From positions 5,039,001 to 5,103,000 of the forward strand of contig NZ_CP021425.1 of assembly GCF_002162375.1 (NCBI RefSeq): a stretch of DNA of 64,000 nucleotides, written 5' to 3'. Below are positions 2,422 to 26,602 of this stretch, one piece after another. Positions within the stretch are counted from its first letter, which is position 1. Each line of letters begins with the position of its first letter. This DNA comes from Oleiphilus messinensis (GTDB taxonomy: Bacteria; Pseudomonadota; Gammaproteobacteria; Pseudomonadales; Oleiphilaceae). Under the pieces are notes generated by a model, which worked only from the letters and a program-made list of their open reading frames with translations, ran no database searches and was not told where the DNA came from. A program made the translations under genes and the position numbers.

Positions 2422-3033
2422 TTATCTATAACGATTGAGATCGAAAAACATCAATGCTCCATATATAGCAGGAAACATCAATTGTAGGGGGCCAGTGACC
2501 GCATCATAAATAAAAGCAAATGGCAGAAGATATTTCAAATTTGGTTTGGAAAGATCAGGCGTTCGCTCACGATGAACCTCTCCCTGTTTGGTGTAGAAAA
2601 CTATTTCTGCATAACTTGTCGTTTTTGGACCATGCTCATCGTTTTTTGGCCCCTTATTTAAATGAGATGTTCCAACCAAAATACCACAATCTTCTGCATG
2701 CTGCTTGAAGTATTCAAAGCCATCCGGCCAAATTTTTTCCAAAAATTGCTCATCCCCATCAGCAACATTCAACTTGGAGAACTGTCTGACATATAGATAA
2801 ATTTCTTTGCAACCATCTAAAGCAGGAGTGATATAGAATTGACCTTTCTTGGGTTCCTCACTTCTATCGCGAGCGTACCATTCAAACTGCGGATGCGGCA
2901 TTCGTAAGTCAATAGCTGTTAAAATAAGAATACCTGTATAACCTTCAATTTCACGCTCAAGTTTATGTGTCGCGCACCCTTGGAAGAAAAAGCAACTGAG
3001 GGCGAGCGTCAAATAAGTTGATTTTTTATGCAT
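2422..3033 (-). CDS. Predicted outer-membrane lipoprotein, YceK/YidQ-like
   Basis: The 203-residue product begins with a lipoprotein signal (LALSCFFFQGC, lipid-anchored Cys near residue 19). It lacks any enzymatic motif that I recognise. The C-terminal stretch with PFAFIYDAVTGPLQ and a hydrophobic tail recalls the small YceK/YidQ lipoproteins, but this protein is about twice their length and the match is weak. A clear AAAGGAG-type ribosome site lies just upstream of the ATG at 3033. It stands alone, with about 130 bp to the AraC gene upstream and about 155 bp to dinB downstream. Confidence 0.6.
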   Translation of the reverse strand: MHKKSTYLTLALSCFFFQGCATHKLEREIEGYTGILILTAIDLRMPHPQFEWYARDRSEEPKKGQFYITPALDGCKEIYLYVRQFSKLNVADGDEQFLEKIWPDGFEYFKQHAEDCGILVGTSHLNKGPKNDEHGPKTTSYAEIVFYTKQGEVHRERTPDLSKPNLKYLLPFAFIYDAVTGPLQLMFPAIYGALMFFDLNRYR

Positions 3034-3162
3034 TCAAAACTCCTTTTCGGTTCATAACGATTTGTAATAATTCTAAATCATCAAGTGAAACACCAGAAAG
3101 TTGGTCTTGTTCCATGCAACTGATTGAGGTACGTGCACGTGTAGCCATCTTGGACTCGATTA

Positions 3163-4191
3163 TCAACAACGATGCCTGAATTCTGAAGGGGAGTTTCCCG
3201 TAAGCTGCCTGAACCAGCGCGTGAAAGACTGGCCTTCGTCGAATCCGGACAACTCTCCGACTTGCTGAATCGACAAGTCGGACTCCACCAACAATTTACG
3301 GGCCCGTTGCAGCCTCAGCTCATCCAGAATCTCACGGTAGGATGTGCCATCATCCTGCAACTTTCGATGCAGCGTCCGCCCACTCATCCCAAACTCGGCG
3401 GCCAATGCTTCGCGGGATGCCGCACCCGCTTGCAGTTGTTGGTGCAAGCGGGAACGTACCAGATCAACAAAACGACTGGCTTTTGTGCGCTCTTCCATGA
3501 GTTTTCTAGCGTGATTTTCCAGCATTTCATGGAGTTGCGGATCGGCACCCGGGAGTGGTAAATCAAACACATCATTGGGTAATACGATCCGGTTTTCAGA
3601 TTCGCCAAAATAAACGGGGCAACCAAAAACGTCAATATAGCGTTGCAGTAACTCGGCTTGCTCAGGCGCTGCATGCTGTAGATGCACCGAGCGAACGACC
3701 GAAACACCTGGCCGGGCGGCAGATGTGATACAGCCAACAAAGGTAGACAATATAAAATCGGAGGCGTGGCTTAACACATCAGGATTGGTAAATTGACAAT
3801 GCCAGCTCACCACAATTTCGCCGGGAACATGGTGAATCCGGGTTTTGCCCGTGTCCCCGACCAACGGTTCAACCTGAACAAGGGTATTCAACATAACCCC
3901 CAGGGTACTGGACGTTTGTGCAAGGAAGCCCACCAGACCAAAGAAGGTGGCAACTCGCCAGCGTGATGCATACAGCCCGGGTAAAGGATCGGGAACCATT
4001 TTCAGCATCGCCGCCAGATACCGCTCCAGAATGGGTCCCGAAACATATGCAGGCTGGCCCTCAAGTGCACCGAGTTCAATACCTGCACGGGACAATACGG
4101 TATCCACCGGCATTCCTTGCTCTCGAGCAAAACAGACTAACTGTTGTACAAATTCTTTCGCCACTTTGTAAGGTGCTGTTTTTATTGTCAT
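3163..4191 (-). CDS. AraC-family transcriptional regulator (OruR/QhpR-like)
   Basis: The 342-residue protein has the long N-terminal effector domain of the arabinose-binding-like AraC subgroup (about residues 15-205, ALEGQPAYVSGPIL). A C-terminal double HTH occupies about residues 240-340, ending GFDEGQSFTRWFRQLTG then SPSEFR. Members of this subgroup often control nearby catabolic or lipase genes. It is divergent from the lipase gene at 4464. The 272-bp region between them holds two CCTGACAG direct repeats exactly 20 bp apart, which would suit an AraC-type dimer. Regulation of the lipase is inference from this arrangement. Confidence 0.9.
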   Translation of the reverse strand: MTIKTAPYKVAKEFVQQLVCFAREQGMPVDTVLSRAGIELGALEGQPAYVSGPILERYLAAMLKMVPDPLPGLYASRWRVATFFGLVGFLAQTSSTLGVMLNTLVQVEPLVGDTGKTRIHHVPGEIVVSWHCQFTNPDVLSHASDFILSTFVGCITSAARPGVSVVRSVHLQHAAPEQAELLQRYIDVFGCPVYFGESENRIVLPNDVFDLPLPGADPQLHEMLENHARKLMEERTKASRFVDLVRSRLHQQLQAGAASREALAAEFGMSGRTLHRKLQDDGTSYREILDELRLQRARKLLVESDLSIQQVGELSGFDEGQSFTRWFRQLTGNSPSEFRHRC

Positions 4192-4233
4192 GACTTATAC
4201 CACTCTCGATTTTTCCGAGTTCCAAAATCAGAG

Positions 4234-4261
4234 CCTGACAGTTTAACGATCATCCTGACAG
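4234..4261. promoter_or_regulatory. Candidate AraC-type operator: two CCTGACAG direct repeats
   Basis: CCTGACAG occurs at 4234-4241 and again at 4254-4261, so the half-sites lie on the same DNA face about two helical turns apart. AraC-family dimers typically bind such direct repeats. The site is 43 bp upstream of the regulator's start and about 200 bp upstream of the lipase start, so it could serve both. This was read by eye; binding is untested. Confidence 0.35.
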
Positions 4262-4328
4262 CCGCATGCCGGACTCCAACCTGTAAACGCCACCTGTCCG
4301 AATTTGATAACTTGATTGACTCTTTTAA

Positions 4329-5414
<1,086 letters not shown>

Positions 5415-5418
5415 GAGC

Positions 5419-6504
5419 ATGGGTCCAATAAAACGGTGGCAGCGTTGGCTGCCACTGATCCTCGCCCCATTGATTATTGCCCTGATTATCAGCCTTGACG
5501 GATCAGAAAAGACATCGCAGAAACCGATGAAAGCGCAACAACTCGATATCACGGCACACTCTCAGTTACTGCCCCCGGCTCCGCGACCCGGTCACGCCGG
5601 ACTGCCACGCGCCAATCAGCAACATCGCGAATCGGAAACAGTACAACAGTTGCCAGCGTTGCCCAAGTCTTTGCAAGGCACTTCCGTGCCGGACGGCTTA
5701 GCGGTTGATAGAAATGGACAACTTATCCTAAACCGGGGGCTTCGGGATGTTTTTGACTATTACCTCAGCACCTTGGGAGAAGAAAATCCGGAGCTTATCC
5801 AACGGCGTATCCTGGCAATGCTCAACCAAGCACTCCCCGAGCCTGCATTAAGCCAGTCTATTGCGGCACTGGACCGCTACATCAGTTACCTCAAAAGTCT
5901 GGAAACCTTACAGCAGTATGGCGGAGTGACACCTGACCAGATTGATCCAGAGCGGTTGCAGGAACAGCAGCAAGAACTCAAGGCCCTTCGTGAACAGTAT
6001 CTCGGTGATACCTTGGCTCAGGCATTTTTTCAGGATGACGAGAGCTGGGCTGACTATACCATCGCACGAATTCGCATTCTGCAAAACACAACATTAAACC
6101 AGATTGATAAGGCCCGGGAACTTGATGTGTTGCGCACCGGTCAGCCCGAATTTGTCCAGTCTCAGCTGAACGCAGTCAGTGTTTACCAGGATCTCAAACA
6201 ACTCACGTCCGAGCTGGAGGAGCAAGGTGCAAACCAGGCTGAAGTGAGGCTATTACGAGAGCAAATGGTTGGTGTAGAGGCTGCCGACCGCCTTGAAGCA
6301 TTAGATCAGAAACGTGCGCAATTCCAGCAGCGCATCAACAATTGGCTCACACAACGGGAATCCCTGTTAAACCAGTCACAGCTCGACCATGACGCCCGGC
6401 AACGTGCTGTAAAAGAGGCCCGCGCCTCACAGTTCGAAGCTCAGGAAATGAACCGGGTTATCGCATTCGAACATAGGCATGATCAACACAATCGTACAAA
6501 TTAG
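5419..6504 (+). CDS. lifO: Lipase-specific foldase (Lif, lipase chaperone)
   Basis: The 361-residue protein has one N-terminal membrane anchor (about residues 8-26), then a Pro/Ala-rich linker, then a helical periplasmic domain rich in Gln, Glu and Leu. The Lif signature is present as RDVFDYYLSTLGE. It folds the preceding lipase in the periplasm before secretion. The start is 4 bp after the lipase stop, so the two genes are co-transcribed and probably translationally coupled. A strong hairpin terminator follows at 6533. Confidence 0.95.
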   Translation: MGPIKRWQRWLPLILAPLIIALIISLDGSEKTSQKPMKAQQLDITAHSQLLPPAPRPGHAGLPRANQQHRESETVQQLPALPKSLQGTSVPDGLAVDRNGQLILNRGLRDVFDYYLSTLGEENPELIQRRILAMLNQALPEPALSQSIAALDRYISYLKSLETLQQYGGVTPDQIDPERLQEQQQELKALREQYLGDTLAQAFFQDDESWADYTIARIRILQNTTLNQIDKARELDVLRTGQPEFVQSQLNAVSVYQDLKQLTSELEEQGANQAEVRLLREQMVGVEAADRLEALDQKRAQFQQRINNWLTQRESLLNQSQLDHDARQRAVKEARASQFEAQEMNRVIAFEHRHDQHNRTN

Positions 6505-21072: not shown

Positions 21073-21894
21073 TTGGATAAACTTGGCCCTCTTTTCAGCT
21101 ATTTTTCTCCTCGCGCAGAAGTGTTCCATGCGGGAACACTCTGCCATAACACCGATTACCAGTCCGGAAAGGGGTGGGGATATCTGCATTTGCTGCGCAG
21201 GGGGGAAATTACGGTTCGTAATGGTGAGCGAACGGCGATTGCTGTCAGCGAACCCAGCATTTTGTTCTATCCTCGCCCATGCTGGCACCGGTTCGACGTG
21301 GATGAATCTGCACCGCCAGATCTGGTCTGCGCAACGATCAACCTGGGCGGCAGCGTGGGACACCCTTTGAGTAACATGTTGCCGGAATACCTTGAGATTC
21401 CAATTTCGGAAGCGCCCTCTCTACAGAACGCGATGGAACTTCTGTTCGCTGAAGCATTTAATGATCTTTGTGGACGAAAAGTCGCGCTGGACCGGTTAAT
21501 GGAATACGTTTTGATCCTCTTAGTTCGATATTTAATCAACACTGAAAACTATCAAAGTGGCGTAATTGCCGGATTGGCTCACCCCAAGCTGGCACTTTCA
21601 CTCAATGCCATACACAAGTACCCGGACCGAAACTGGTCACTGGAAACCCTAGCGGATGAAGCCGGCATGTCCAGAGCCAGCTTTGCCAAACATTTTCGCA
21701 CCACGCTGGACTGCACACCACTGGACTATCTGACCTCCTGGCGGCTCAGCATTGCACAAAGCCTGTTAAAAAGGGGGCAATCCATCAAAGCGACCGCCCC
21801 CAAAGTGGGCTATCAAAGTGCTGCAGCATTCACACGGGTTTTTGCTCAACGAATGGGCATCAGCCCGTCTGCTTTTCAACAGGCCCACGAATAA
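21073..21894 (+). CDS. AraC-family regulator (cupin N-terminus), TTG start
   Basis: The 273-residue protein starts at a TTG that follows AGGAG at good spacing; no upstream ATG gives a better start. The N-terminal half has a cupin-like ligand domain (HLLRRGEITVRNGERTAI, FYPRPCWHRFDV). The C-terminal half has the AraC HTH pair (LADEAGMSRASFAKHFRTTL and VGYQSAAAFTRVFAQRMG). It sits divergent from the AhpD-like gene. Its last 63 bp belong to an 83-bp segment repeated at 26041, beyond about 4.1 kb of acquired DNA, so the gene end was duplicated or regenerated when that DNA entered. Confidence 0.9.
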   Translation: MDKLGPLFSYFSPRAEVFHAGTLCHNTDYQSGKGWGYLHLLRRGEITVRNGERTAIAVSEPSILFYPRPCWHRFDVDESAPPDLVCATINLGGSVGHPLSNMLPEYLEIPISEAPSLQNAMELLFAEAFNDLCGRKVALDRLMEYVLILLVRYLINTENYQSGVIAGLAHPKLALSLNAIHKYPDRNWSLETLADEAGMSRASFAKHFRTTLDCTPLDYLTSWRLSIAQSLLKRGQSIKATAPKVGYQSAAAFTRVFAQRMGISPSAFQQAHE

Positions 21895-21914
21895 AGTCAA
21901 TCACTTTTTCAGGA
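21832..21914 (+). repeat. 83-bp direct repeat, left copy (att-like)
   Basis: It covers the last codons and stop of the AraC gene plus 20 bp beyond. The copy at 26041-26123 matches at 82 of 83 positions by eye; the single mismatch is 7 bp after the stop codon. The two copies enclose the IS607-type element, toxin-antitoxin genes and a broken gene. Confidence 0.9.
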
Positions 21915-22034
21915 GTCAGATGGACATTCAGAAGCCTAGGGAGGGGCTTTAACAGTTAACGAAATACTTGACTAAACCTACTCATATACAGTAGCTTGTA
22001 CAGTATTGTTTTCTCATGGATGGAGGTGATGATT

Positions 22035-22631
22035 ATGGCTGAATTTCTATCGATAGGCGCTGCCGCTTTTCTGCTGGGTGTGGCCGTTTCCACCCTTCGT
22101 TGCTGGGAAAAAGAATCACGATTTTTCTCAGATTTCCGTACGCCGGGTGGCCATCGTCGTTACGCGCTTGATAAACTTTTAGCCTTTTGCGGTCAGTCGA
22201 CTGCTAATGAGCAACGCAGAACAATCTGTTATGCACGCGTCTCTTCTCATGATCAGAAAAAAGATTTGCAAACGCAAATTGCTCGCTTGCAAAAACATGC
22301 CAGAGAGGCTGGCTATGAAGCTGTCGAAACCATTGATGATCTTGGCTCAGGATTAAACTATAAAAAACGGGGATTAAAGCGATTAATTAAGTTGATTTGT
22401 CAGCGTAAGGTAAAACGACTGGTTATCGTTCATAAAGATCGCTTACTCCGATTTGGGGCTGAATTGTTATTTGCGCTTTGCCAGTTTTACGGTACGGAGG
22501 TTGTCATTCTTGAGGAAGTTGAAGAAAACTTTGAACAGCAACTTTGCCATGATGTGTTAGCGTTAATGACGGTCTTCAGTGCGCGATTGCATGGTTCACG
22601 TAGTCGTAAAAATCAACGAGCCGTCGCCTAG
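22035..22631 (+). CDS. tnpA: IS607-family serine recombinase (TnpA)
   Basis: From the ATG at 22035, after a strong GGAGGTGA site, the protein has 198 residues. It has an N-terminal MerR-like HTH (AAFLLGVAVSTLRCWEKE, then RTPGGHRRY). A serine-recombinase catalytic domain follows, with nucleophile S70 in YARVSS and the conserved DLGSGLNYKKRGLKRL and HKDRLLRFG blocks. It cuts and joins the element ends through a phosphoserine intermediate. It appears intact. Confidence 0.93.
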   Translation: MAEFLSIGAAAFLLGVAVSTLRCWEKESRFFSDFRTPGGHRRYALDKLLAFCGQSTANEQRRTICYARVSSHDQKKDLQTQIARLQKHAREAGYEAVETIDDLGSGLNYKKRGLKRLIKLICQRKVKRLVIVHKDRLLRFGAELLFALCQFYGTEVVILEEVEENFEQQLCHDVLALMTVFSARLHGSRSRKNQRAVA

Positions 22632-24286
22632 TGGATACGCCAACGAAAACACTCACCTTTGAAACCCGGCTTAATTTGATTCATGAGCAGGATGCGGCAT
22701 TGTGCCACTATGCCGAGCTGTGGAATCAAGTGAAGTTTCGTTGGTTTGCTAACTTACAAAAGCCTAAAGCCCAGCAATTGAGTCGTACCCAGTTTATGCA
22801 TGAAATGGGGATGCCGTTCAGCTATCGGGTGTTTCAAGGCGTCCGGCAAAGCATTAAAAGTTTAATCCAGTCTTACCAAACCAATCGAAACAACCGGCTG
22901 GTGACGCTGGAAGTTAAAATCAAACAGCTGGAGAAAACGCTCAACAAACTAGAGAAGCGCTGTGATCATGTTGCAGAGAAAGGCTGCCCGCAACAGGCCA
23001 AAAAACTTCGCAACACACTACGACAGAAGGAAGTGAAACTGCGTCGTTGGCAGCGAAAGCAGGCCGCCTTGGTGGCCGAAAAACAGGAAAATAAAACCCC
23101 CATTTGTTTCGGCGGTCGAAAGCTGCTGAAAGAGCGACAAACACTAAAATCCAATGAAGGGATCAGGGATTGGCAATGTCGCTGGCACGAAGCGCGACAC
23201 CGTGAATTTCTATTAGTGGGTTCTCATGATGAATCCTGGGGCTGTCAAAATGCCCAGCTATCGCCCAGTGAGCAAGATGATGCTTACCAGCTAAAACTCC
23301 TGGTACCCCATCAATTACGCGCTACGTTCGGCACGACCATTAACATTGATTGCCTGAAATTCAAGCATGGTAAGGCGGCTATTGCCCAAGCCGTCTGGCA
23401 GAATCAGGTTAAAAAACTCGATAAATCAATCAAAGGGCAACCCCTGAGTTTTCGATTTAAGCGAGACAAAAAAGGTTGGCGGTTACTCGTTAGCGTGGAA
23501 GTGGCAGGACCAACAGCGCAAGCAGAGTGGATCGATGCTGATCAAGGTGTCATTGGTGTGGATGTCAACCCGGATCACTTAGCGGTCGTCGAGCTGGATC
23601 GGAACGGTAACCCACTGCAACACCGAACGTTTGACTTACCTTTGCACTATAAGAATGATGCTCAACGAGCGGCTATTATTGGGGATGCCGTACGAGACCT
23701 GATGGACTTTGCCGCACAGCAAGGTAAAGCGGTGGTGATCGAAAAGCTGGATTTTCAGCAAAAGAAACGGCAATACCAAAAGCAGGATCATCCTCAGTAT
23801 GCCCGCATGTTGAATGCCTTTGCTTACGGTAAGATCAAGGACTTGATTGAAACGCAAAGCATTAAACGCGGCATACGCCTTTATCACGTCAATCCGGCTT
23901 ATACCTCATTACTGGGGCGGATGAAGTATCGCGATCGACACGGTTTTTCAGATCACCACGCGGCCGCGTTAGTGATTGGTCGTCGGCATTATGGCTTTAA
24001 AGAAAAGCCGCCAAAACAACTCATTGGTATTAACGCGAAGGGTACCGTTAAGACCGAGCATCCGCCTGTAAGGATGGCGCTCGGGGATTATCAGTATTAC
24101 AACAAACTTCAGCGTTGGTACCAACCACTCGAAAAATCATTAGATTTTCTGAGTGGCTGGCGTCACTTTCGTCGTGTGAATCGGGTTAGTTACTCCGTCG
24201 AGGCTCGCCTTGATGGTAGACCGGGCATGAGTCCCGACTTGATTCAGGAAAGCGTAACCCTGCTTTCCGCGCACCCTGCGCTGTAG
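22631..24286 (+). CDS. tnpB: TnpB RNA-guided nuclease of the IS607 element (long form without zinc ribbon)
   Basis: The GTG start overlaps the tnpA stop by one base. The 551-residue product has a long, helical, Lys/Arg-rich N-terminal part and a C-terminal RuvC fold. The three catalytic acids are seen as D311 (GVDVNPDH), E371 (VIEKLDF) and D441 (SDHHAAAL, aligned with the usual DxNAA). The CxxC...CxxC zinc ribbon normally lying between the NPAYTS block and the last Asp is missing. TnpB proteins cut DNA guided by an RNA from the element's right end, helping the element persist. Catalytic residues are complete, so activity is possible. Confidence 0.9.
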   Translation: MDTPTKTLTFETRLNLIHEQDAALCHYAELWNQVKFRWFANLQKPKAQQLSRTQFMHEMGMPFSYRVFQGVRQSIKSLIQSYQTNRNNRLVTLEVKIKQLEKTLNKLEKRCDHVAEKGCPQQAKKLRNTLRQKEVKLRRWQRKQAALVAEKQENKTPICFGGRKLLKERQTLKSNEGIRDWQCRWHEARHREFLLVGSHDESWGCQNAQLSPSEQDDAYQLKLLVPHQLRATFGTTINIDCLKFKHGKAAIAQAVWQNQVKKLDKSIKGQPLSFRFKRDKKGWRLLVSVEVAGPTAQAEWIDADQGVIGVDVNPDHLAVVELDRNGNPLQHRTFDLPLHYKNDAQRAAIIGDAVRDLMDFAAQQGKAVVIEKLDFQQKKRQYQKQDHPQYARMLNAFAYGKIKDLIETQSIKRGIRLYHVNPAYTSLLGRMKYRDRHGFSDHHAAALVIGRRHYGFKEKPPKQLIGINAKGTVKTEHPPVRMALGDYQYYNKLQRWYQPLEKSLDFLSGWRHFRRVNRVSYSVEARLDGRPGMSPDLIQESVTLLSAHPAL

Positions 24287-24298
24287 GGATAGGCTCGT

Positions 24299-24319
24299 TT
24301 AAACCTTGAGTAGGTTTAA
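24299..24319 (+). terminator. Hairpin at the right end of the IS607 element
   Basis: TTAACCT-type arms, TTAAACCT (24299-24306) and AGGTTTAA (24312-24319), pair perfectly around TGAGT, 12 bp after the tnpB stop. It overlaps the right subterminal inverted repeat. It may be a transposase-bound end, part of the TnpB guide RNA scaffold, or a terminator; the sequence alone does not decide. Confidence 0.5.
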
Positions 24320-24339
24320 GCAGGTTTATGAAAACGGTT

Positions 24340-24555
24340 TTAGCCACGAGTTAACTCCAAAATTTCACCTGCTGTCAACCGACCCTTTGTTATACCTCGA
24401 ACGGCAGCAAACGGGTTGCATTGATCTTTATTGACCAACTCGACCTTATCACCCACGATTACAAACTCTACATTGGTTTTGCCTGGTGTTATTTGAAGAA
24501 AATCTCGTATTTCCTTGGGAATTGTGGTTTGCCCTTTGACCGTGACGCTGCTCAT
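24340..24555 (-). CDS. AbrB/SpoVT-type antitoxin, orphan
   Basis: The 71-residue protein starts SSVTVKGQTTIPKEIRDFL, the swapped-hairpin AbrB/PrlF DNA-binding fold, and ends GEILELTRG. Antitoxins of this kind normally continue a few residues further and overlap a PIN-domain VapC toxin gene. Here the stop is about 20 bp from the right end of the IS607 element and no toxin follows, so the partner was probably lost when the element entered. A GTATTAC/GTAATAC dyad upstream suits autoregulation. Confidence 0.8.
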   Translation of the reverse strand: MSSVTVKGQTTIPKEIRDFLQITPGKTNVEFVIVGDKVELVNKDQCNPFAAVRGITKGRLTAGEILELTRG

Positions 24556-24567
24556 AACTACCTCTTA

Positions 24568-24595
24568 GTATTACGGTTTAGAAATATGGTAATAC
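24568..24595. promoter_or_regulatory. Inverted repeat upstream of the AbrB-type antitoxin
   Basis: GTATTAC (24568-24574) and GTAATAC (24589-24595) form a perfect dyad starting 13 bp before the antitoxin's start codon on its upstream side. This position is typical for AbrB-type antitoxin autorepression. Confidence 0.5.
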
Positions 24596-24771
24596 GGGGA
24601 GCTGTGAACTACACATATTTTTAGCATTCTAACCTGATTGAATCATAAAACAGGTCGCACTAAGGTGAAACTCTACGTCCTCCAAGGCTTTGGGGTCATG
24701 CTGCTTCGCGTTAAAATCAGGTTTTTCTGGTAGTTTGTAAACTGGCTTGAAGAAATAATGATTGGGCTGTT

Positions 24772-24805
24772 ACTATCAATTTGAAGTAATTGAATTTTTG
24801 ATAGT
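24772..24805. promoter_or_regulatory. Inverted repeat upstream of the YafO-like operon
   Basis: ACTATCAA (24772-24779) and TTGATAGT (24798-24805) are perfect 8-bp arms with an AT-rich centre. It could be an operator or an upstream transcript end. Confidence 0.35.
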
Positions 24806-24840
24806 GTGCCTGCGATGTTGCATTCATGTCTATGTGATAT

Positions 24841-24857
24841 CAAACCCAATGGGTTTG
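24841..24857. promoter_or_regulatory. 17-bp perfect palindrome, candidate operator of the YafO-like operon
   Basis: CAAACCCA and TGGGTTTG are perfect 8-bp arms with a single central base, 64 bp upstream of the first gene of the operon. A compact perfect palindrome here is what an autorepressing antitoxin would bind. Confidence 0.5.
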
Positions 24858-24920
24858 CCCAGATGTGCAAGATAGATTTTGCTGATATCATTACCTTGGT
24901 TGTTTAAAGGAGATTTCAAG

Positions 24921-25094
24921 ATGAGCGCTTTCGACGAAGTAAAAGATCATCCTGCAAAAAAGCAAGAACAGAAAGGAAGCGGGCCGGAAGGCTTAACTGT
25001 TAATGAAATGGAAGAGTTAAAGAAAGCGATGACTGAAGCACGGAAGACGGTCAAAAATCGTGGTCAAGGAGGATTTCAGGAGTATGTCGGTTAA
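24921..25094 (+). CDS. Small hydrophilic protein, candidate antitoxin for the YafO-like toxin
   Basis: From the ATG at 24921, which has an AAGGAG site, the product is 57 residues and strongly charged (FDEVKDHPAKKQEQKGSGP, then NEMEELKKAMTEARKTVK). The central part looks like one helix with a disordered N-terminus. It has no Phd/YefM-type fold signature as in YafN. Its last 11 nt overlap the YafO-like gene, the usual coupling of antitoxin and toxin. Antitoxin function is inferred from size, charge and position only; I do not recognise the family. Confidence 0.6.
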   Translation: MSAFDEVKDHPAKKQEQKGSGPEGLTVNEMEELKKAMTEARKTVKNRGQGGFQEYVG

Positions 25095-25488
25095 GATATT
25101 TTATGGAGCTGACCTATTAGAAAAGAAACACATCCCCGCTGTTAAACATGTTATTCAAGCATTCAAAGAGTACAAGGAAACGAACAATCCAGGGACAATG
25201 TTCGGTCGAGATGCAATCACATACCGCCCACGATCAGCTTTCGAAGAAGATATTCACCACGTTCACCTATTGAACAAGCAAGAGTTCAAACTTAAGAAAC
25301 TATACTTGAGGGACAAGTACAGCCGAACAAGTGATTCATGCTTGTTTTATTGTCCCGGTTTCAGACACGCGGACTATTACCTGGCGTTAACAATAATTTG
25401 GCAGGATGCACACTCATTTATGGATGAACGACATGACATACTCAATCAGTATGCTGAAGAGGCACTTAGATTCAGGAGCATTTACTAA
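25084..25488 (+). CDS. YafO-family toxin-like protein (predicted ribosome-dependent mRNA interferase)
   Basis: From the ATG at 25084 (AGGAG site) the protein has 134 residues. It follows the YafO pattern: FKEYKETNNPGTMFGRDA, then a HVHLL segment, then YSRTSDSCLFYCPG, then ALTIIWQDAHSFM, ending ALRFRSIY. E. coli YafO is a translation-dependent RNase whose antitoxin is YafN. Here the preceding gene is a different 57-residue protein, and a third small gene follows with a TAATG overlap. The order of conserved motifs supports the family call; activity is inferred. Confidence 0.75.
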   Translation: MSVKIFYGADLLEKKHIPAVKHVIQAFKEYKETNNPGTMFGRDAITYRPRSAFEEDIHHVHLLNKQEFKLKKLYLRDKYSRTSDSCLFYCPGFRHADYYLALTIIWQDAHSFMDERHDILNQYAEEALRFRSIY

Positions 25489-25697
25489 TGATGAATATTG
25501 AATGGGTAAAATCTGCACCTACTGAAGAAGGTTTTTATATCGTCGCGGTTGAGTACAACAACGGTATCGGTACATGTGCTTGTTCTTATTGGGAGCCTAA
25601 CAGAGGTTGGTCTCTGAGCAATGAAGGCGAGAACATAGTAGCTCATATCAAGCTGGATAAAATCATCAAAGAACTGCCCTATCCTTGGGACAATTAG
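25488..25697 (+). CDS. Small protein of unknown function, third gene of the YafO-like operon
   Basis: The 69-residue product starts at an ATG that shares one base with the preceding stop (TAATG), so translation is coupled. It reads IEWVKSAPTEEGFYIVAVEY at the start and ends KIIKELPYPW. The W...P.EGFYIVA...LP.PW layout recalls small phage-borne DUF551-like proteins, but the match is weak. It contains two close cysteines (GTCACSYW). It may be an accessory or the true antitoxin of the upstream toxin-like gene. Confidence 0.55.
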   Translation: MMNIEWVKSAPTEEGFYIVAVEYNNGIGTCACSYWEPNRGWSLSNEGENIVAHIKLDKIIKELPYPWDN

Positions 25698-25710
25698 ACA
25701 TACTAACTCA

Positions 25711-25759
25711 GACTTGATCTGACAGTTACCTGTTGACTACCGTGTCTGTCAGATTAGTC
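25711..25759. terminator. Long imperfect hairpin after the YafO-like operon
   Basis: ATCTGACAG (25717-25725) pairs with CTGTCAGAT (25746-25754), and outer GACT/AGTC bases extend the stem. The loop is 20 nt. There is no T run, so termination is uncertain. The stem starts 14 bp after the stop of the third gene. Confidence 0.4.
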
Positions 25760-25978
25760 TATCCATCACTTGTATTCGAAATTAATAATCCACAAGCTTG
25801 CACATTCAATTCTTCAAACTCCGCCCAAGTATAAATCTGCTTATAGTTCTATTCTAACTGCACACTAATTCTACAAATATCCGGCCTATCCTCATAAATC
25901 GTGCATAGATTCTTGGTATTCAGATATCCCCCAGTGGCAGGAAAGACAAGTATGGTAGTCAGCGTCAATCTCTTGGAA
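25759..25978 (-). pseudogene. Broken YkgJ-like cysteine-cluster protein gene
   Basis: One minus-strand frame reads FPATGGYLNTKNLCTIYEDR then PDICRI, hits an in-frame TAG, and continues NYKQIYTWAEFEELNVQACG to a stop at 25759. The CTIYEDRPDICR block and the NxQAC end are typical of YkgJ-type proteins (Cys-rich, predicted Zn/Fe-binding). The N-terminal cysteine cluster is not recognisable in frame. The internal stop and the missing start make it a remnant. It lies inside the repeat-bounded acquired segment. Confidence 0.6.
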
Positions 25979-26040
25979 TAATAACCGCTTATTCTAAATA
26001 TTGGCACATGAACTCACTACCGTAAAATGGCATAAATTAG

Positions 26041-26123
26041 ACACGGGTTTTTGCTCAACGAATGGGCATCAGCCCGTCTGCTTTTCAACAGGCCCACGAA
26101 TAAAGTCATTCACTTTTTCAGGA
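26041..26123 (+). repeat. 83-bp direct repeat, right copy (att-like)
   Basis: A second copy of the AraC gene's 3' end and following 20 bp, with no AraC coding sequence ahead of it. It differs at one position from the copy at 21832-21914. The sequence after it leads into the VOC gene, probably the original neighbour of the AraC gene. Confidence 0.9.
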
Positions 26124-26188: not shown

Positions 26189-26602
26189 ATGGAAAATAAT
26201 ACCGATCAGAAGTTCACAAAAGGCCTGCATCACCTGGGTCTAACCGTACCCGATGTAGCTATTACGGCAGCATTTTTTGTTGATCAGCTGGGCTTCATGA
26301 TCGTCGGTGAAAAGCCGGATTATCCTGCAATTTTCGTCAGTGATGGCACAATTATGCTGACGCTTTGGCAAGCCCAATGCGAAACGCCCAACCCATTTGA
26401 TCGTAAAAATGTTGTCGGGCTGCATCATTTTGCGTTAAAGGTTGAGAGTAAAGCCAAGCTGGATGAACTCTACCAAACCTTTTCAACATTACCGGAGATT
26501 GCAGTTGAATTCGCTCCGGAAGCACTGGGTGGCTCAGGAGCGGTGCACATGATGTGCACAATTCCAGGTGGCTTAAGAGTTGAGTTTATTGTTACGCCCT
26601 GA
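26189..26602 (+). CDS. VOC-family protein (glyoxalase/bleomycin-resistance fold)
   Basis: The 137-residue protein has two betaalphabetabetabeta modules: HHLGLTVPDVAITAAFFVDQLGF at the start and LHHFALKVESKAKLDELY in the second half, ending GGLRVEFI. Candidate metal ligands are the His residues of HHLGL and LHHFA and the late Glu. VOC proteins include lyases, dioxygenases and resistance proteins; the substrate is not predictable. It probably stood directly after the AraC gene before the 4.1-kb insertion. Confidence 0.88.
   Translation: MENNTDQKFTKGLHHLGLTVPDVAITAAFFVDQLGFMIVGEKPDYPAIFVSDGTIMLTLWQAQCETPNPFDRKNVVGLHHFALKVESKAKLDELYQTFSTLPEIAVEFAPEALGGSGAVHMMCTIPGGLRVEFIVTP

Follow-up and report, generated by a model that had tools for sequence, protein, structure and literature searches.

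Restriction-modification systems can reportedly enter a genome by insertion with long target duplication, a mode credited to Nobusato et al. 2000 and Furuta et al. 2010. Two later papers that summarise this work describe such insertions as leaving direct copies of the target, which vary in length but are 'in the order of 100 bp' (PMC3874152, PMC3031569). A ParDE-type module after MaOC1 in Microcystis aeruginosa lies between identical 152-bp direct repeats (PMC7935541), and a review describes the integration mechanism of toxin-antitoxin systems as unelucidated (PMC7167474). Here we analyse a locus in a 64,000-nucleotide stretch of the Oleiphilus messinensis genome (contig NZ_CP021425.1, positions 5,039,001 to 5,103,000; hereafter the window, whose first letter is position 1), where a toxin-antitoxin islet lies between an AraC-family regulator gene and a VOC-family gene. 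We consider it probable (about 0.6) that this islet was inserted there with a long duplication of its target and without an integrase.

As in the restriction-modification insertions, a small selfish gene pair occupies an ordinary chromosomal site with no mobile-element gene of its own, and direct copies of the target flank the insert (83 bp, 82/83 identical; also 52 and 99 bp at two further loci of the genome). The locus differs from those insertions in that its cargo is a toxin-antitoxin system, in that mostly gene 3' ends serve as target, and in that no close relative provides an empty site. The Microcystis module resembles it in being a toxin-antitoxin pair between direct repeats, the first of which starts 14 bp after a gene's stop codon, but has been described in terms of border repeats with internal inverted repeats, not as a gene-end duplication (PMC7935541). 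Within our partial coverage of the literature, we found no account of a class of toxin-antitoxin islets that have duplicated gene 3' ends as their borders.

A duplicated gene end around the islet

The repeat and its host genes are arranged as follows (window coordinates).

21073 to 21894, plus strand: host AraC-family regulator (Pfam matches Cupin_6 and HTH_18), whose 3' end is the duplicated target
21832 to 21914, plus strand: left copy of the 83-bp repeat, placed by alignment
26041 to 26123, plus strand: right copy of the 83-bp repeat (82/83), placed by alignment and genome search
26189 to 26602, plus strand: VOC/glyoxalase-family gene (PF00903), host flank

The repeat comprises the last 63 bp of AraC (21 codons including the stop codon) and the 20 bp beyond. 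Its two copies, which start 4209 bp apart, align over 83 bp without a gap and are identical at 82 positions, the sole mismatch being A at 21900 against T at 26109. This alignment bears out the first-pass annotation of the window, which had proposed an 83-bp repeat with one mismatch. The right copy is not accompanied by the rest of AraC and is followed by the VOC gene; the AraC locus is the only full copy of that gene in the genome. When the whole genome was searched (strain ME102, here G000; 6,379,281 bp in a single contig), the 83-bp sequence was found at exactly two places, with no third copy, and shuffled windows gave a chance expectation of 0.00 matches for a 23-mer out of the repeat. The 22-base core of the repeat had no exact match in collections of viral and species genomes, from which the window's own genome was possibly excluded. 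A diversity-generating retroelement was considered and, with no reverse transcriptase search made, rejected on the single mismatch, which does not have the expected A-to-N form.

The gene 3' end has been regenerated exactly, together with its stop codon, as happens with tyrosine integrases, and the first-pass annotation had accordingly suggested site-specific integration with the two copies as attL and attR. The islet would then be a decayed integrative element, its integrase deleted or acting in trans and its cargo eroded by IS481 and IS607. The regenerated gene end at the junction is indeed what this locus shares with the tyrosine-integrase islands found at gene 3' ends. However, there is no integrase or integrase fragment among the insert genes, as that annotation had itself observed (the TnpA found there belongs to IS607), and the nearest of the five tyrosine-recombinase (PF00589) matches in the genome, at 3,624,632, is 1.4 Mb from the islet. 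The want of a third genomic copy of the repeat also counts against a decayed element, to which we return below.

Contents of the insert and its IS607 element

An acquired segment between the gene-end copies had been proposed at 4.1 kb; the segment stands, but not its size, since the IS607 element is independent of it and the rest of the insert amounts to 29 + 1702 bp, or about 1.73 kb. The islet proper consists of an orphan AbrB-type antitoxin, a three-gene YafO operon, a fossil IS481 end and a YkgJ-like remnant.

21915 to 21943, no strand: 29 bp of insert or host origin separating the left repeat from the IS607 left end (IS607 end mapping)
21944 to 24338, plus strand: complete IS607-family element with ends GGGCTTT...AAACGGT, common to about 30 copies or remnants
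22032 to 22631, plus strand: IS607 serine recombinase TnpA (NF033518, E=1.3e-57)
22631 to 24286, plus strand: RNA-guided nuclease of the TnpB type, encoded by the IS607 element (TIGR01766 above cut-off; NF040570, E=1.2e-27, slightly below its own)
24340 to 24555, minus strand: orphan AbrB/MazE-type antitoxin, its stop codon abutting the IS607 right end (TIGR01439 above cut-off; MazE_antitoxin weak)
24921 to 25094, plus strand: putative YafO-operon antitoxin, 57 amino acids, its role judged from position (counterparts before yafO in genus g5)
25087 to 25488, plus strand: YafO-family toxin (PF13957, E=1.1e-22)
25488 to 25697, plus strand: third operon gene, 69 amino acids, kept 3' of yafO in genus g5 (gene-order comparison)
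25701 to 25757, plus strand: IS481-family end fossil, 57 bp, transposase gone (80-88% matches)
25760 to 26044, minus strand: decayed YkgJ-like (CxxCxxCC) gene (PF03692, E=5.5e-4, below cut-off; three-frame reading)

The toxin belongs to the YafO family by a wide score (80.4 bits for PF13957 against a curated cut-off of 25). Genus g5 of the same family has the 57-amino-acid gene, the toxin and the 69-amino-acid gene in the same order, and there the counterparts of the putative antitoxin are 41-56% identical and stand before yafO. The YafO-like operon of the first-pass annotation has three genes. The AbrB/MazE-type antitoxin has no partner toxin in the islet. A second copy of the putative YafO-operon antitoxin was seen in the same genome (L072 5336-5521, G000 about 5,673,335), with an 83%-identical DNA stretch of 145 bp at G000:5673364 and no YafO gene after it.

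The 57-bp fossil has 80-88% matches that adjoin annotated IS481 transposases in many plasmids, and it also occurs in other genomes. It shows a loss of DNA from the insert, a point that would suit a decayed integrative element. Islet DNA had no match in phages, and in plasmids the fossil alone was matched. The YkgJ-like remnant has lost both its reading frame and its cysteines; its apparent start codon, as far as the frame can be reconstructed, would coincide with the first bases of the right repeat. As the adjacent, now non-coding repeat is near-perfect while the YkgJ-like gene has decayed, the duplication appears to be younger than that decay, unless the repeats are being homogenised. The decay of YkgJ and the IS607 and IS481 events are separate from the duplication and may each have come before or after it.

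The IS607 element was assigned to its family by NF033518 (194 bits against 110), by its pairing of a serine recombinase with TnpB, and by ends that are found in about 30 genome copies. It is a complete copy inside the islet and, since about 30 copies or remnants share its ends, it is an independent multicopy insertion sequence and not part of the 83-bp duplication. Elements of this family target GG and do not duplicate the target when they insert (PMC6188088). IS607 was therefore rejected as the sole cause of the duplication, which agrees with the first-pass view that its recombination does not explain the 83-bp copy. As an observation on the family itself, many copies (about 30 places, G000 contig C1) have internal deletions that are confined to tnpA and leave tnpB in place, with recurring lengths of 1948, 2095, 1941 and 1890 bp (for example 135434-137381, 616568-618515, 2417913-2420007 and 5033486-5035580). 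They look as if derivatives carrying TnpB and defective in tnpA had been mobilised in trans.

Similar islets in this and other genomes

Close direct repeats were scanned in 2.0 Mb of the genome, and the pairs were sorted by eye on length, identity, copy number and coding context. After removal of paralogues, insertion sequence copies, tandem and intragenic repeats and low-identity intergenic repeats, three pairs were left, namely the AraC islet and two more. The first of these (G000 5262528-5265733) has 52-bp repeats (51/52), located in the space after a DUF2894 gene, which enclose an IS607 element, a Gp49/RelE-like toxin and a presumed antitoxin. The second (G000 250841-252993) has 99-bp repeats (97/99) around two open reading frames of 384 and 222 amino acids, neither with a Pfam or PADLOC match, and contains no IS607. 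Its repeat contains the overlapping ends of two genes, the final 94 bp of a DUF3750 gene and the final 9 bp of the convergent pstB, and a sequence that joins two gene ends in this way must derive from a target that was once continuous. An empty DUF3750-pstB site was sought in relatives, where pstB is not adjacent; for the 52-bp islet, the partner gene turned up in no other genome. Two other repeat-rich regions were seen in passing. One, at G000:504367-518015, is an array of small genes with several intergenic repeats of 150-300 bp (for example GAACAGGACAGGCATTGC), possibly a cassette array; the other, at G000:122000-130000, is a polymorphic-toxin-like locus with repeated segments of 61-371 bp among large minus-strand genes.

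Other genomes hold comparable loci. L099 (genus g12) has an insert of 839 bp that encodes a YafO toxin and a Phd/YefM-type antitoxin. It is flanked by two copies (127 bp, 92%) of an ABM-family gene's 3' end with its stop codon, and the stop codon of the toxin gene abuts the right copy. In L277, a homologue of the Gp49-type module of the 52-bp islet is enclosed by two copies (83 bp, 83%) of the end of a gene for 317 amino acids, again with its stop codon. Neither islet has an IS607. L289 is ordered differently from the other islets, with YafO (YafNO-like) and ParDE-like modules within 275-bp, 98.5% identical repeats (466-740 and 2381-2655) that correspond to the 3' end of a parE-like gene. Integron attC sites were considered for the repeats of L099, L277 and L289 and rejected, since all proved to be coding gene ends. 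Altogether, 3 of 27 homologous toxin-antitoxin loci had flanking repeats, one of them the differently arranged L289, against 0 of 41 control loci; the one-sided Fisher test gives p ~0.06, which is suggestive only, so that the case rests on the nature of the repeats and not on their count. The recurrence of the layout, twice more in this genome and also in two further genera, hints at integrase-free insertion of such gene pairs.

These comparisons bear on the decayed integrative element. The repeats vary between insertions in both sequence and length (52, 83 and 99 bp here, 83 and 127 bp elsewhere), and Gp49- and YafO-type modules sit at unrelated targets within unrelated repeats. As targets and repeats show no relation in sequence or length even within one module family, there is unlikely to be a fixed att core, and the islets stand apart from tyrosine-integrase islands in having neither an integrase nor a common att core despite related cargo. 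With repeats of 52-127 bp that are unrelated and lie at unrelated genes, no integrase nearby and no third copy, the attL/attR reading is less well supported, and we consider it unlikely. The third option in the first-pass annotation, duplication-mediated capture, fits best.

The IS607 element deserves a second look here. Its left end lies 29 bp (AraC islet, window 21832-21944) and 20 bp (G000:5265661-5265733) inside the left repeat in two of the three Oleiphilus islets, a spacing for which a post hoc estimate gives a random chance of about 1e-5 to 1e-6. It could be imagined that TnpB or TnpA made a break beside the gene end and that repair copied the neighbouring 52-83 bp across captured DNA. 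Against such IS607-driven capture, the 99-bp islet, L099 and L277 do without IS607, the other IS607 copies examined in the genome have no flanking long repeats, and the element makes no target duplication; we therefore hold it to be quite improbable. TnpB nuclease may play a role in break repair, or IS607 may prefer such boundaries.

We give equally little credence to an accidental repeat, arising by one-sided homologous or illegitimate recombination of foreign DNA after natural transformation, or by some other rearrangement, as a chance feature of the donor fragment and with no recurrent mobile unit. The patchwork of decayed pieces in the insert would be in keeping with an accident of this kind, but the layout recurs with toxin-antitoxin cargo, and in several cases the repeats end just past stop codons.

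How the copies may have formed

In the favoured reading, insertion with target duplication, an islet of about 1.73 kb (without the insertion sequence) would have entered between the AraC and VOC genes, leaving a direct 83-bp copy of the host gene 3' end and an intact AraC. Two sub-models for the formation of the copies may be distinguished. In sub-model (a), a staggered break or a replication event would duplicate the target at insertion. In sub-model (b), the incoming DNA would carry its own allele of the gene end beside the toxin-antitoxin genes and would integrate by homologous recombination at that gene. A copy made at insertion should later acquire differences without regard to codon position, since one of the two copies no longer codes. 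In L099, 7 of the 8 differences between the copies fall at third codon positions (p=0.0026); such near-exclusively silent differences imply that both copies were still coding when they diverged, and so suggest that an allele was imported. At the AraC locus the coding part of the copies is free of differences, so that the test cannot decide there. We lean towards sub-model (b), at least for re-transfer.

Several points weigh against insertion with target duplication. The silent-site argument consists of the eight differences in L099, and L277 does not repeat the pattern (p=0.29). Most of the homologous toxin-antitoxin loci examined (24/27) have no flanking repeats. In E. coli, the ccd, yafNO and mazEF loci show clear presence/absence polymorphism (for ccd, BLAST coverage alone was inspected), and yafNO and mazEF, though polymorphic, lack long direct repeats, so that the scar is not general to toxin-antitoxin insertion. 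Finally, because no relative with an uninterrupted AraC-VOC junction was available, we infer, rather than observe, that an insertion and not another rearrangement took place at the AraC locus. In the collections searched for an empty AraC-VOC site there is no close relative, and there are only distant AraC proteins (49% identity or less), the nearest of which (49%) does not adjoin a VOC gene. L107, an order-level relative with the arrangement CMD(-), AraC(+), TetR(-), VOC(+), was tried as an empty site and rejected, its AraC being only 32% identical. The L107 region (2537-6246), where CMD, AraC and VOC genes are neighbours and a TetR gene stands before VOC, suggests in its own right a functional AraC/CMD/VOC cluster.

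A wider proposal, which we put forward as possible though doubtful, is that some toxin-antitoxin operons spread without an integrase and are addressed by homology. They would carry an allele of a host gene 3' end and integrate at that gene of the next cell through homologous recombination. The host gene would stay whole, and the direct repeats would permit exit as an address-carrying circle.

For the biology of such modules, the duplicated gene 3' end is a recognisable and recurrent scar, which marks points of insertion and separates young insertions from old ones. It lets empty sites be sought, and it leads to predictions on excised circles and on RecA dependence. Insertion of this kind would extend to toxin-antitoxin modules a mode that is known from restriction-modification systems.

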